A stretch of 64,000 nucleotides of DNA, taken from Ectocarpus siliculosus (taxonomy: Eukaryota; Sar; Phaeophyceae; Ectocarpales; Ectocarpaceae). The stretch is from contig FN649746.1 of assembly GCA_000310025.1 (NCBI GenBank), positions 171,754 through 235,753 on the forward strand, in the 5' to 3' direction. The notes beneath the pieces were generated by a model. The model was not told the DNA's origin. It did no database searches and saw only the letters and a program-made list of their open reading frames with translations. Below are positions 8,715-64,000 of this stretch, piece by piece. The stretch's first letter is position 1, and each line of letters opens with the position of its first letter. A program made the translations under genes and the position numbers.

Positions 8715-11700
8715 ATGGCGGCGCGATGTGATGCTTGCTGATGAGGCTTGACCACTGTAGAGACGCGAAATCCCTGTTTTTCCCCTCCTGCCTCTGCTGT
8801 CGTAGTGTAGCTGTCGAGGTGCACATCGAAGACAAACACGACCGATTTATCCCGTCTACACAACACGCAGCATCATGGGAAGACCTGCTGCAGATGCGGA
8901 AGTTTGTTTTGCTCATCATTGCACATCAACCTGGGAGTCTGGCTTCCAAGAAGACTCCGTCTCAGGCTGTTATACCCATCATCGCTGGGTCAGACACGTT
9001 GATCCTTTGTGATGGCAGTAAGGCAATATCCTCCAGTCCAACACACCGTGGGTCCAGTCTTGCGATCTACTGTACCTCAAACATGCAACAAAGCAGAGAA
9101 TGCGCCTAATCGCGCTTCTCTCTGTTGCTCGTTCTGCTGTGGTGTATCTACGTTCAGATTTCGATGAGGACGAAAACATCGAGTTCACCATCGAGGGCGA
9201 TGTCGAGGTGAGATGAACCGTAGATTACGTAGATTCCGTAGTAGGCGTGCCCGCTGTCGGGCGGGTGAATCGACCTAAGCGCGTTCCGGCCCTATTGAGG
9301 TCGGTCGACTGTAGGTGGAAGCGAGTGACATGGCAAAAACGCGGTGTGAGGTATTCATTTTGACAAACGTTTAATGTGCACAGGTAGTGGAGAACTTCGA
9401 CTCGATGGGACTGAAGGACGAACTTCTGCGCGGGGTTTACGCCTACGGGTTCGAGCGTCCCTCGGCGGTGCAGCAGAGGGCTGTCAAGCCCATCACCAGC
9501 GGGAGGGACGTCATCGCCCAGAGTCAGGTGGATCGTTTGTCACATACGTTTGGTTGGTTGGGCCCTCTTCCGATCTGTTTTCGCTTGTGTTGTTTTTCGT
9601 TCTGTTGAATGTTTGCCAGCAACAGAGACGCCAGTGCCACGGGTGGTTTATGCTCTTGCTGCTTGCGCGATCCGTGTTTCTTAGACGAATCTCGAAATGT
9701 CCCCTGGCGAAGACTTTGCAAGAAGGCGTTATATCATTCGTTCGACGACAGGAAGAGTGCCGTGTGCGATGCCCCCTGCACCGGCGACGCCTCGCAGTCA
9801 TGCGGCGGAGTTGCCGCGTTCGACGTTTACCGGCTGACCCGCAATAGACGGCCATGGACGGATCAGCCGGTAACGTCGAAGGCGGCCGCTCCGCCGCATG
9901 ACTGTGAGGCGTCGCCGGTGCTGGGGGCATCGCACAAGGCACATTTCCTGTCGTCGAACCGAACCTGACACGGAGCACCCTTTGCTTTCATCTGTTAAAT
10001 AGTCACTCCCTGTATCACCTCATCCCGTATATGAAGGACGCTGACCATTTCTGCGCGCTGTGTGTCTCGTTCTTTACCCCTACCACGTCCTTCCTTCCAT
10101 CTTCCACGACACACATCATCCACTGCCGGGTGCCATCGTCCACTTCAACTCGCCGATTGACCGCGTGATGGCAATCATGACAATCATGACAATCGTGTGA
10201 TGACAATCAGTCGGGGACTGGTAAGACGGCAGTGTTCTCCATGGGCATCCTACAGATGCTCGACACGACTTCGTCCGACACGCAGGCGCTCGTGCTGTCG
10301 CCAACGCGCGAACTGGCCGAGCAAACTCAAAAGGTACGATGCGATAAGTTTGGGTTAGGTTCGTGGATTTGACAATTGGCCGATGAGGGGCAGGGATGGG
10401 GACAGCTTTGTTGGTGTTGGTGTGATTTTTTTATTTGTTGGTGAGGTGAATATGGTCGGTGGACACTACTGTATCCGCTGCGGGTCCTCGTGGTCCTGCA
10501 GAATATTTTTCGATAGATACTTTGCACATTGTCCGCGTAGCATGTTGTGCAATTTTTTTTTTCCTCTGGGCTGTGTTTATTTCGCATGCGGCTGCTGCAC
10601 ACGGTCTTTTCTGCTACTGAACGGTGGCCTTCTGGCGTGTTGGTTGGGCACTCTGGAATTGTTGGTGATTGCATGCGTTGTTCATCCTTTTTTTGTGTTC
10701 TTGGAGCAGGTTATTCTGGCGCTGGGGGACTTCATGAACGTGCAGTGCCATGCCTGCATCGGCGGCAAGAGCATCGGAGAGGACATCCGCCGCCTCGACT
10801 ACGGGGTTCAGGTGAGGTTTTCTAGTACTTGACCGACCTTACTGCAATATTATAGTCAATGGCCCTTTCGTTCTGTGACGGACAAGAAACCGCAGGACCG
10901 TCGTGGTACTGTAGTGCACTACACTCGACTCCTGTTCCGTTGACGAGGCATATCCGTCAGTCTCACGATCGATTTGCACGTCGAGATGGCTGCAGGACCA
11001 GTGTTTCCTCGACGTCCCCTGGCTTGGTGTGCCCATCGTGTCCAGAGATGTCTTGCCACGTGCATGACGCGTCAGCCGCCTGGTACACGAAGTTGTTGTT
11101 GGCTCGTACATGCAGACCAATAGCTTGCGCGTGCGCTGTCCTGCCCTGCCCCTATCCTTGGGGTTTGATTCTCTTGGTGATCTGTTTTCGGCTACGTTTT
11201 TTTTGGACGGAACAGAAGGCCTAACTACTGTTGCGTTTTCCTGCCCTGCCCCGATCCTTGGGGGGTTTTGGGTCGACTTTCGGCTGCTGTTTTTTTTTGT
11301 CCGGAACGTTGCAGGTGGTGTCCGGAACTCCCGGACGTGTGTTCGACATGATCAGGCGCCGCAACTTGCGCACCCGCAACCTCCAGGTGATGGAGCGACG
11401 GAGCGTGCCGGAAGTGTTTGGTTGTCGGCTGTTTGCGTAATATTGTGTTTCAACCTGGCCACAGATGTGTAAACCGTGTTCTCGTTCCTGTATTGAGCAT
11501 GTCGGATTTTTGGGGTTGGCTGTTGGCGTATTGTGTTTCAATCTGGCCACAGATAAATGTGTAAATCGTGTTCTGATTACTGTATTGAGCTTGTCGGATT
11601 GTTGGGGTTGGCTGTTTAAGTATTGTTTTCCAATGTGGCCACCACATGTGTGCTTTATCATGTATGCATACCACATGCACCACGTGTTGTGAGTACTGTT

Positions 11701-14700
11701 TTCCGCACTTTGCAAGGCTCTGTCTGACCCTTGGCCCTCTACATCTAACTGCATACCACGCGCCAACACGAACACGTGTGCAGATAAATATATGCATCTT
11801 TCGTCCAGGAATTTACGCCCTGGAAAAAATTGTCTCGTTTTCGCGTGGACTTGTGTGTGTCCAGATGCTGGTGATCGACGAGGCGGACGAGATGCTCAAC
11901 AAGGGCTTTAAGGAGCAGATCTACGACATCTACAGGTACCTGCCCCCGTCCACCCAGGTGGTGCTGATCAGCGCCACGATGCCGCAAGAGGTGCTGGACA
12001 TGACCAAGAAGTTCATGAACATGCCCGTCAAGATCCTCGTCAAGCGCGATGAGCTCACCCTCGAGGGCATCAAGCAGGTAAGCAGGATACCGCCACCGTC
12101 GACATGAAGGGTGGTGAAAGCGGCAAAGGGAGCAGCATCGTCAACAACAGCAGTAGCGTCAACTGACCGAATGAGCACAATGGGGGTCCCTCAATAATGC
12201 CGGTTGACTTATGCCACTGCCCGGTATAGTGCCGATGAAATCGCGAGACACACGGATGGAATATTCCGATGTTGAAGTGGTCTCATTCTCTGAATAGTGA
12301 TACGATAGTGCTGGGTGCCCTGTTAGCGCCGGTGAATCTGGAGGGTACATTCCGCAACCGCAAGCTGAGGGACCCCAACTTTAGGAGTATGGTAATGAGG
12401 GTGTCGACGATAGCCAGAGTGACAGCGAGACACGAGAGCAAGGTGTTTGTCAAACGCGATGAGCTAAATGTTGAGGCCGTAACCAGGGTCATGGCTCCTG
12501 ACAGCAATGCTGGCCTCAAAATCATGGGGCCTCAACATCTAGCTCATCGCGTTTGACAAGCACCTTGCTCTGGCTGTCCCTGTCACTTTGTCCGTCATCA
12601 TCACTGCTGGTTGCTTCGACTCAAACGACGTTATTGTTGTTGATGCCTTGGCCAGATCTAGCCCGATGCTGTACGGCTAGGAAGGTTGGGCGAAGGCAGA
12701 CTTGGGAGGGCCAATTGCACCGTCGTTCCCGCTCAAGCCCTTCCCCTGTTATCCCTCCGCTGCCTGTTTCCTTTCCCGCAAACTCTTACCGAAACTCCTT
12801 ACCCCTGTTACCCTTGATGACCGGTTGATGGTAAAAATAACAAGTTCTTCGTGGCGGTGGAGAAGGAGGAGTGGAAGTTCGACACACTGTGCGACCTGTA
12901 TGACACACTCACCGTTACTCAGGCGGTCATCTTCTGCAACACCAAGCGGAAGGTGCGGTCAAAGTATGCATAGGACGATGCAGCAGTCGCTAGTCCGTGA
13001 GAGAGTGGGAGGGTATTTGGCGTGAATGGCGAGGGAGGCCTGTGTTGACGGTGCCTGGTGGTGTCGGTGTCGCCGTGGCATCATTCAAGCGGTCGCCTTG
13101 GGCGAGGCAGGCAACACCACAGGCTGATAACAATGGCTACGTCGGTGGTACAGCAGCAGCAGCAGCAGCAGCAGTACCACGAGCAGTACCACGACCACCA
13201 CCACCAGCAACAGCAGCAGCAGCAGCAGCACTGCGCGAATCGACGAGACGGAGAGAGAGCCTCCCTCCCCCGTCGGGTATTGTTTGTGATGTTGGTGCAA
13301 AGCGCAAGCAGGCGATGTGATGATACGGATAGATACCGCCGCGGCTGTTTTGCGGGTCGTGCCGTGCCCTGTTGCATACGGTACGCCACAAGGCGGAAGT
13401 GTTCGGCGCGATATAACCTGTTCTTGTCGAGATGAGCCATGCCATGCCATCCTCGTACATCCTTCTCATTGGAGAGTCTGGCATCATCTTTACCATTCCG
13501 TTGGCTCCGCCGTGCCGTTCTGCGAAGTACTTATGGTAGTAATGGTGTATGCGGTGGCAATAGTGCTGCTACGCTTTGTGCGGATGCCCCCATATGTGAA
13601 ACTGAAAAACGCTGAGACGCCTTGCCCTGCATGCGATGTGTAGCACATCTTTTGGCAGTCCGGCGATTGATTTTATTTGTCCCATCATGTTGCTCATGTT
13701 TGCTTCGTACTGCTGCTGTTGAAACGTTTGCTGGACCGCAGGTGGACTGGCTGACGGCAAAGATGCGCGAAGTGAATTTCACTGTATCCTCCATGCACGG
13801 GGACATGCCCCAGAAGGAGAGGGACGCTATCATGGAGGAGTTCCGCTCGGGGAGGTGAGGCGTCTTCCATCGCAACAGCAACACCTAGACCTGCTTTGTT
13901 TCATGGTGTGCCGAGCAAGTGTCGGGATGGGGATGGATTGAATGAAGACTCTGTGCGATACTTAGGCGTGCAGCTTTTGTGGCCGGTGTTTTTTTGTTTT
14001 TTTCCACACCAAGGTTAACGTAGCAAAAAACAACATGGAAGAGGTCCTCTCGGGGCGGGGAGGCATCCTCCATAGCAACTCCTATTAGCAGTACTTGTAA
14101 TAGACCTACGTTATCGGGGGTGACATGATGCAAGATACCACGCCCCGTGGACCGACTGCTTTTCAAAGGTCGAATACTTCACGACGAAAAGGACGCATAG
14201 ATGAAACGGTGCGTTTTCGGAAAGCTCTCGGCGAGGCGGCTCCAACGCCGCCTTTGCCGGCACCGCCACTGCTCTGCTGTAGAGAAGTAGAGCTTTGAAA
14301 ATCGAACCTGGCGGTTTGATAGCTTACGTCACCTATAGGATAGTTTTATGGTGTGCGGAGGTTTGGGATGGAATTGGGTTGAAGACTTGGTGCGACACTC
14401 AGAAGTTCAGCTATTGTGGCCAACACTTTTTCCCGAGCCAAGGTTAGTGTAGCAGTAATGACGATCGTTGTTGCTCGAGATCCCGATTTTGATCCGGTAG
14501 TCCAGTAGCTCGACGGCGCGTTTTTCGCTCCATGTTTCGATGCTGTTGTGCAGTATCGTGGGGGTTATGGGTATCGGACACGCTTTCACGTCCTAAACTC
14601 TTTGGTGCTATCACTGCTCGCCCACGAGCGTAACATTGATGCGCAACATCTCGTCGACAGTGCTCGGGATTCGCTCTTCATGCAACAGTACTTCGGGGAC

Positions 14701-18460: not shown

Positions 18461-19663
18461 TACCATAACTTTCCCAGCTCTCTGCTCTGAATAGATATAT
18501 ATATATACCCTCTTTTCACGAAAGAAAAAAAAAGTATGCATACAATAGCCAGGAGTATTACTGCTATCAGTAGTAGTAGTACTCTACCAAAAACTATTAC
18601 TCCGTATTCTAATAGTAGGCTTGGCATTATATCCGGCGTTCGTTATACCGTACCAACTCGACCCACATCGTCACTGTGCGATCCCTCTGCCTTTGGATTG
18701 TGGCAGGTGGTTGTCGAGGCGATCATCGCGCTCGCGGAGACGGGAAAACGCGCTTCTCTCCTGCCGTCGCTGAAGAAGCAGCTGCCAAGGGTGAAGAGCA
18801 AGCTGCGGTCGGCGATACAGGCCGGAGTCGAGGACGGCTCGCTAGTGAAGGTGTTCGTCTAAGCGTGTTTGCCTATGCATATGTGACACGTTTTTCTTCA
18901 ACGTGCGTCGGTCTTGATTATGGCAGTACTTGGCGCTCTCTCCAAGGACTATCGCAAAGGGAGTCGAAGAAAAAACGAGAGCCGCGGCGAGAAAAAAAAC
19001 GGCATGGTCCAGTGTCCAATGTCCGGTTTCGGAGTAGAATTGTACAAGGAGAATACACAACAACACCACATCGAAAAAATTCTCTGCTCTTCTGCTCTTC
19101 TGCTAGCATCTTTTCCTGCAGTTGGCCACTCTCTGCCCGACACTTGTCTTGGTTCAATGGGACTCCTCTCTACACCAGTGGATTCAGAATAGTCTGGAAT
19201 CGGAATATATTTATCCCTCCCAATCGTTGTTCCTGGAACCCATTTCACTATCTAGACTAGCGTAAATGACACAAGATAACACTCCCCCTGGACAGATTTT
19301 GAAATCTGGATTTCTCAACAGCAGAAAGAGCCACAGCGCCGAAAACAGTTGCGTTGAAGCTGTCTCGTCGAGAGCTTTCCGAAAATGTATTGTTTCATTT
19401 ATGTATCCTCTTCGTCGTGGCGTATTCGAGCTTTGAAAATTGGTCCAGGGGGTGTGTTATCTTGTGTCGTATACGGTATACTCTGAAGGGCCATATACAC
19501 CTGTTGGCGTTGTTGACGGTTGTACGGAAAAAATAATGTATCGAAGCCCTTGCGTATCTTAACACCAACGTCTATCGCCCCGTTTGTGCCTGCACGAGAA
19601 ATAGAGAAAGAGCGAAAGAGCGAGAGAGATGGAGAGAGAGAGAAATAGAGAAGAGAGAGAAAT

Positions 19664-63205: not shown

Positions 63206-63665
63206 TGTTAGAATATTGCGGGGGGGGGGGGAGGTTTACCACCGGGGGGGGGGGGGGGGGGGGCCAAAAAAAAACCCCCCGGCCAATTAAATCGGGGTTT
63301 TGCCCGGGTCCCTATTGATACCCAACCGGGAGGGGAAAAAAACCTTCCCCCCAAAAAAAACCAAAAAAAAAAACTGCCCCCCGAATGGGGGGAAAAAACC
63401 CCCCCCAAAAAAACCCGGAACTACAAAAACCCGTCCAAACCCCCAAAAAAAAAAACCTTTTCCGGGGAAAAAAAAGGATTCCCCCCCCCCAAAAAAAAAA
63501 ATTTAAAAAAAAAAAAAAACCCCCGCCCTGAAAAAAGGAAAAACCCCCCCCCCCTTCCCCAAAAANNNNNNNNNNNNNNNNNNNNNNNNNNNNNNNNNNN
63601 NNNNNNNNNNNNNNNNNNNNNNNNNNNNNNNNNNNNNNNNNNNNNNNNNNNNNNNNNNNNNNNNN
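63206..63665. other. Low-quality sequence and assembly gap (100 N at 63566-63665)
   Basis: 63206-63565 consists of long smears of identical bases; it is a corrupted copy of 63680-63985. The 100 N are a gap of conventional size. Nothing in this stretch should be interpreted biologically. Confidence 0.9.
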
Positions 63666-64000
63666 GGGGGGGGGGGGGGAGCGTGCACAATACAGAGCTC
63701 TCGGTCGATTGAAGTCGGTGTTCTGCCTGTGTCACTATTGATACCGATCGTGACGTGTAGAATAACCTTCCGCCAAAAAGCAGCCGAAACAAGTAGCTGC
63801 TCTCGGACTGGGGGCAACAACACCCCAGCAAAAAATCGCGGAGCTACAATAGCCAGTCGAAACCGCCAAAAAAAAAAGCCTTGTCCGTGGATAGAGATGG
63901 ATTCGCCAGCACCAAGAAAAAAAATTGAAAAAGAAGAAGAACCACACGCCGTGAAAAATGGAAAACCCACCCTCCCTCTCACCAGAATCGGGAACAAGAC

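Follow-up and report, generated by a model that had tools for sequence, protein, structure and literature searches.

Plants make new small regulatory RNAs from hairpins of copied gene pieces. An independent origin of miRNAs is generally assumed for brown algae. An intronic foldback in Ectocarpus, both arms of which resemble a WSC-domain coding sequence, raises the question of whether a hairpin of this kind is a nascent small-RNA locus, as was proposed in an earlier note on the same DNA, or an inert insertion. A foldback with a recognizable donor inside a housekeeping intron provides a concrete test case for the plant-style inverted-duplication route in brown algae, and this route of origin would be testable with the existing Ectocarpus libraries of AGO-bound small RNAs.

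Within the window, that is, the entire 64-kb stretch of DNA analysed here, a gapped self-alignment revealed a palindrome at positions 9740-9959 in which 194 of the 222 columns match (87%); the ungapped arms, 9740-9827 and 9872-9959, are 91% complementary. Among the 25 longest of 35 pairs with copies no more than 1500 bases apart, this is the longest inverted repeat in the window, and the runner-up overlaps a run of Ns. The low-complexity poly-C/poly-A sequence at 63400-63680, around the N run at 63566-63665, yields a false inverted repeat. The predicted RNA fold of 9700-10000, which the earlier note had suggested examining, is a strong hairpin with a minimum free energy of -216.9 kcal/mol, compared with a mean of -111.6 (sd 5.19) for 100 dinucleotide shuffles, none of which reached the native energy (z -20.3); the opposite strand folds to -223.8. 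The foldback is thus real, but its description as a pair of near-perfect complements was overstated, given that arms 1 and 2 differ by 11 substitutions and one indel over the 103 columns aligned with the related exons of contig C19 that are discussed below. Similarly, the loop of only 19 bases depends on how the weak inner pairs are counted, the terminal loop in the minimum free energy structure being 8 nt long with weak closing pairs. On the plus strand, we place arm 1 at 9740..9843, the weakly self-complementary loop region, with approximate limits taken from this fold, at 9844..9860, and arm 2 at 9861..9959.

The foldback resides in a predicted intron of what looks like a housekeeping gene, in agreement with the earlier proposal. 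When six exons around it are joined, a single open frame results, and the best solved relatives of the spliced protein are eIF4A-III (phmmer search of PDB, E 5e-136), followed by eIF4A-I (3.8e-107); the gene model is based on homology, reading frame and splice ends. The intron (9528..10210, plus strand) is 683 nt long and has GT-AG ends (GTGGAT...AATCAG), the introns of this gene ranging from 376 to 767 nt. It is flanked upstream by an exon at 9384..9527 (plus strand) that ends with ...RDVIAQSQ in front of the GT donor, and downstream by an exon at 10211..10333 (plus strand) that starts with SGTGKT..., assigned by frame, splice ends and the PDB search. Arm 1 has its WSC sense frame on the strand of the eIF4A-III gene.

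The claim that both arms encode a WSC-domain fragment is borne out by comparison at the DNA level, the Pfam hit itself being below the cut-off. Arm 1, in sense orientation, contains a 35-residue reading (frame 9741, plus strand) that matches positions 64-82 of the Pfam WSC domain with E 0.0013 and 19.3 bits, under the curated cut-off of 27.8, and a Pfam scan of the five other frames tried produced no match. Arm 2, which carries the same fragment in antisense orientation, encodes a similar peptide on the opposite strand, with one Cys replaced by Ser and one base lost. The DNA of arm 1 matches a WSC exon of contig C19 with 128 bits (E 7e-32; 90 of 103 columns identical), and arm 2 is identical to this exon at 81 of 100 columns. 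In the genome scan, this C19 exon reaches 29.9 bits for WSC, which exceeds the cut-off; a 99-residue reading of it gives 27.4 bits, slightly too few.

Searching the genome with 9740-9850 at E 0.001 (189,456,909 bases in 492 contigs, withheld stretches read as N, matches taken from the best candidates scored) produced six matches, namely the two arms themselves, a pair of places on C19 (87 and 86%) and another pair on contig C482 (77 and 76%), so the arm search that had been called for did find related WSC genes. In the family scan, all of these places outside the hairpin but one lie above the WSC cut-off. The exception, C482:102597, is absent from the hits listed there and has a stop codon in frame. 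The two C19 exons (L007 and L008) lie in opposite orientation about 90 kb apart on their contig; the two C482 exons (L009 and L010) are also oppositely oriented, about 77 kb apart, and in one of them the exon is interrupted by a stop codon. When proteins were searched with the peptide of arm 1, the C19 pair likewise ranked first and the C482 pair next, with others below (best 150 of 159 candidates). The WSC family is indeed numerous in this genome, with at least 133 domain hits at E 0.01 among the best 150 of 244 candidates scored.

Because coding sequence continues on both sides of the matched stretch in the C19 exons, the arms correspond to an internal exon fragment that lacks the splice sites of the exon. 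Both arms align with the same internal stretch (103 and 100 columns), as expected of the proposed inverted duplication of a WSC coding fragment, and, judging from these alignments, we consider it very probable that the foldback is gene-derived and arose by inverted duplication of roughly 100 nt from a WSC exon. At 8 columns, both arms share a state that differs from both C19 copies; at the 7 of these that are comparable with C482, the latter sides with the arms in 5 cases, with C19 in one and with neither in one. The 5 cases suggest changes on the C19 line and a donor that was probably either ancestral to the pair of WSC genes on C19 or a sister of them that has since been lost. The common outer end of the two arms favours a single capture followed by inverted duplication over two captures. 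Derivation of the arms from two different WSC paralogues is disfavoured by the same common end and by column 20, where C482 sides with C19, but the tree is a short one, and the node that separates the arms from the rest has 57% support.

The two arms have decayed unequally. At columns where both C19 copies agree, arm 2 has 8 private changes and arm 1 has none, counting clear changes only, with three columns undecided; the two-sided sign test for 0 versus 8 gives 0.0078, and the respective branch lengths in the tree are 0.100 and 0.002. At column 54, one of the 8, arm 2 carries the C482 base. Two further columns differ three ways and two contain gaps, one of these gaps marking the base that arm 2 has lost. 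In the first three-way column, 16, it is arm 1 that agrees with C482; in the other, 98, it is arm 2, so arm 1 may have changed once. The changes in arm 2 include the loss of a cysteine and of one base and, accordingly, are not of the coding type. Simple drift of two equal copies is a poor explanation of the 0 versus 8 asymmetry; the intactness of arm 1 could possibly reflect error-prone synthesis of arm 2 at birth, or chance. Among the 11 substitution differences, three are G-U-compatible on the plus strand and two on the minus strand, and six are mismatched on both. The arm differences show no G-U bias and give no indication that pairing within the RNA stem has been under selection. Moreover, selection for silencing should preserve the antisense arm 2, yet this is the arm that decayed, so regulation of WSC genes is not supported. 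Judging from these patterns, the foldback appears to be drifting rather than selected to silence WSC genes.

The earlier note went further and proposed that a product of the hairpin could target WSC genes. Complementarity does exist on paper. Counted on the native sequence, 24 of the 211 21-mers in the foldback reach a plant-style mismatch score of at most 4 against 250-base stretches around the four related exons. Each of the 24 begins in arm 2. The best pair with both C19 exons except for a single mismatch, and the one at 9888 combines one mismatch with two G-U pairs. When up to 3 mismatches are allowed, nine places in the genome match a 23-mer taken from arm 1, of which three are exact (arm 1 and both C19 exons), one has a single mismatch (arm 2) and five have three mismatches, two of these being the C482 places. 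These observations, in particular the low-scoring 21-mers and the restriction of exact 23-mer matches in the searched genome to arm 1 and the two C19 exons, would be in line with a young miRNA or siRNA locus that is functional and represses C19-type WSC genes. However, the arm that would supply the guides is the decayed one, which differs from C19a at 19 of 100 columns; the 21-mers that start at 9911-9916 share a mismatch at guide positions 12 down to 7, near the usual cleavage site; and only 4 of the 24 begin with U. We therefore regard such a working locus as improbable and, from the sequence, would be surprised by real regulation of WSC genes by this foldback.

Two other sources of the hairpin also had to be weighed. 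The assembly does contain gaps, such as the N run at 63566-63665, and the foldback could in principle be a chimaera produced by a foldback read or by assembly. Divergence between the arms at about 10% of sites, together with an indel, is not expected from a foldback read, and we reject this explanation as extremely improbable. The foldback could also be a transposable element of the MITE type or a fragment thereof, given that MITE-like palindromes are present in this DNA: with up to 3 mismatches allowed, the core of one dispersed family, CCCCTGGACCGATTTTCAAAGCTCGAT, matches six places in the window, starting at 19425, 33980, 40832, 41144, 53810 and 58203, compared with none in 100 shuffles, and is found in two of the six palindromes of the census described below. 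Nevertheless, the foldback matches this core at just 12 of 23 positions, and the WSC coding sequence reaches the ends of the hairpin. The genome was also searched for identical hairpins at many loci, the pattern of an ordinary transposon, which was not seen. Among the best candidates scored, the arm search found no second copy of the hairpin, only the hairpin itself and the four exon-like places, and the 23-mer search at up to 3 mismatches detected no other place with both orientations adjacent. No exact direct repeat of 4-12 nt that could be a target-site duplication flanks the insert (ends tried, 9725-9748 and 9952-9975), the sole exact repeat near the foldback ends being 4 nt long and located inside the arms. 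As these searches found neither a second copy nor a target-site duplication, we reject a dispersed transposon, leaving a MITE origin highly improbable, and interpret the foldback as a gene-derived inverted duplication.

Nor does the foldback appear to be a member of a known miRNA family. In an Rfam scan, mir-1451 (39.7 bits; curated score, 85), VA (33.6; 62) and isrG (25.9; 100) all fell short on the foldback, and we rejected a known Rfam miRNA on the grounds that all six listed hits are under the curated scores. The strongest hit, MIR7125, was to a second foldback at 12415-12590 (49.9 bits; curated score, 100) and is taken to be a generic response to a long stem.

The machinery that might act on such a stem was sought in the genome as well. 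A single Argonaute locus, represented by six exon hits, was detected, and two places gave RNase III hits; for Dicer_dimer, there was no hit in this genome and none in the control genomes either. A single AGO locus, together with the many WSC genes and the intron lengths of 376-767 nt, is in keeping with a brown alga. A published Ectocarpus small RNA, the putative moRNA of esi-MIR11352, is absent from the searched genome at up to 2 mismatches. RISC-bound RNAs of Ectocarpus are reported to be mostly 21 nt long with a 5' U and to be enriched in introns and miRNAs, a large share being intronic or intergenic, and the transcriptomes of ago mutants are described as showing minimal change in target transcripts (PMC12867755), which warns against expecting strong target effects.

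Taking into account all these observations, we consider it somewhat better than an even bet that the foldback as a whole is best explained as a single-copy, fairly young, WSC-derived hairpin in an eIF4A-III intron that constitutes a proto-MIR or hairpin-siRNA locus and is drifting. Under this scenario, some 100 nt from inside a WSC exon would have been duplicated in inverted orientation fairly recently, would sit in the intron as a single copy and would be transcribed along with eIF4A-III, assuming transcription through the intron. The intron RNA would then form a stem of about 100 bp of double-stranded RNA that Dicer would be likely to accept, and the most probable activity would be the low-level production of mixed, siRNA-like RNAs of about 21 nt from both arms, provided that Dicer cuts the stem and the products are loaded onto AGO. 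We rate the existence of any 21-nt products from the foldback at close to, but short of, an even chance. In its form, the foldback looks like a hairpin locus recently born from a gene, and the sequence evidence points towards drift.

The main competing explanation is that the foldback is inert genomic debris, namely an inverted insertion generated by repair that is spliced out and degraded without any small-RNA output. This is a substantial possibility, albeit appreciably below even. It accommodates the 8 private substitutions and the lost base of arm 2, the lack of G-U bias in the arm differences and the presence of another single-copy palindrome elsewhere (L048:810-1063). Against it, a stem of about 100 bp in a transcribed RNA would be a likely substrate given Dicer and AGO, and intronic small RNAs are reported to be enriched in Ectocarpus RISC (PMC12867755). 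On balance, we prefer the drifting proto-MIR or hairpin-siRNA locus.

Additional foldbacks provide some context for this reading. A second, older one (12415..12590, plus strand; 75% self-match) lies in a later intron of the eIF4A-III gene (12078-12844) and has no other match in the genome at E 0.001. The segment 12400-12610 folds to -125.9 (z -12.8), and none of 200 shuffles was as low. The best match of this foldback in the window is to the preceding eIF4A-III exon (11865..12077, plus strand; assigned by frame, splice ends and the PDB search), with 16 of 17 nt identical, equalled by 1 of 1000 shuffles; the corresponding peptides are KVFVKRDEL in the foldback and KILVKRDEL in the exon. In a protein-level comparison of six loci, its own exon (E 6e-4) ranks ahead of the paralogue on C2 (0.036). 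Given that the match was noticed first and tested afterwards, these comparisons are suggestive of a foldback copied from its own exon.

In a census of 263,883 non-N bases from 49 of 59 sequences (ten were dropped as copies or overlaps), a non-random sample that includes many WSC loci and some overlap, we found six palindromes that measure 100 bp or more and run through their own centre. Both eIF4A-III foldbacks are among them; the one at 9740-9959 ranks first in identity and folds to the lowest energy per base. Two others carry the dispersed core mentioned above. The 254-bp palindrome L048:810-1063 (contig C4) has no other copy detected in the genome, no Pfam hit in the one 64-residue reading scanned and no recognized donor. 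At a WSC locus of C482, the 358-bp palindrome L009:5830-6187 matches the nearby segment 5362-5492 (85% over 133 columns), which on the strand of the WSC gene contains an open, Ser/Thr-rich frame (TTGNNDALPV...) that we take to be a putative linker of this gene. More inverted repeats, in which the arms measure 49-75 nt and the loops are longer, were observed at WSC loci of C456 (L015:926-1132 and L016:924-1132) and C482 (L010:3246-3832). It is conceivable, although we consider it rather unlikely, that this genome repeatedly spawns foldbacks through the copying of exon fragments back to back into introns, and that these form a nursery of the intronic miRNAs of brown algae. The arms of older foldbacks would drift past recognition, which is perhaps why the 2015 Blast survey found no evidence of a coding route for Ectocarpus pre-miRNAs.

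In the titles and abstract openings retrieved from the open-licence PMC literature, we found no report of a coding-derived foldback in a brown alga. The closest counterparts are described small-RNA loci. The miRNA criteria cited for Ectocarpus include pairing of 15 nt or more of the miRNA to the other arm, reads of both miRNA and miRNA* with a 2-nt offset, and at least 66% of the reads sharing the same 5' end (PMC4513859); the stem of the foldback is long enough for 15-nt pairing, a criterion that presupposes a mature miRNA. According to the same report, 75% of Ectocarpus miRNA loci are in protein-coding genes, principally in introns, and the foldback resembles them in being an intronic hairpin on the strand of the host gene. 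Unlike the pre-miRNAs of that survey, for which Tarver et al., in the passage cited, found no coding-gene origin by Blast and deduced hairpin regions as the source (PMC4513859), the foldback has a detectable coding origin. As a palindromic region, it is also similar, by description alone, to the 65 'weak candidates' in extensive palindromes, suggested to be transitional, newly emerging loci (PMC4513859), and to the 295 putative miRNAs obtained in Ectocarpus by a search that included a palindrome-based strategy (PMC12867755). With pseudogene-derived miRNA genes, as described in PMC3237417, it shares the adjacent placement of two opposed gene fragments, but differs from them in that both of its arms have the same outer end.

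Another comparison is with Arabidopsis, where 16 recently evolved MIRNA loci, including MIR824, were attributed to inverted duplication of coding sequence, with MIR161 and MIR163 as controls (PMC1790633). As in these young loci, the arms of the foldback resemble a coding gene family well past a 21-nt site; compared with the C19 exon, arm 1 is identical at 90 of 103 columns and arm 2 at 81 of 100. Unlike the Arabidopsis loci as reported there, the foldback is located on the sense strand in an intron of an unrelated gene and is known from DNA alone. Its anatomy, a gene-derived inverted duplication inside an intron, nevertheless matches the structure proposed for newborn plant MIR and siRNA loci, as the earlier note had recognized.
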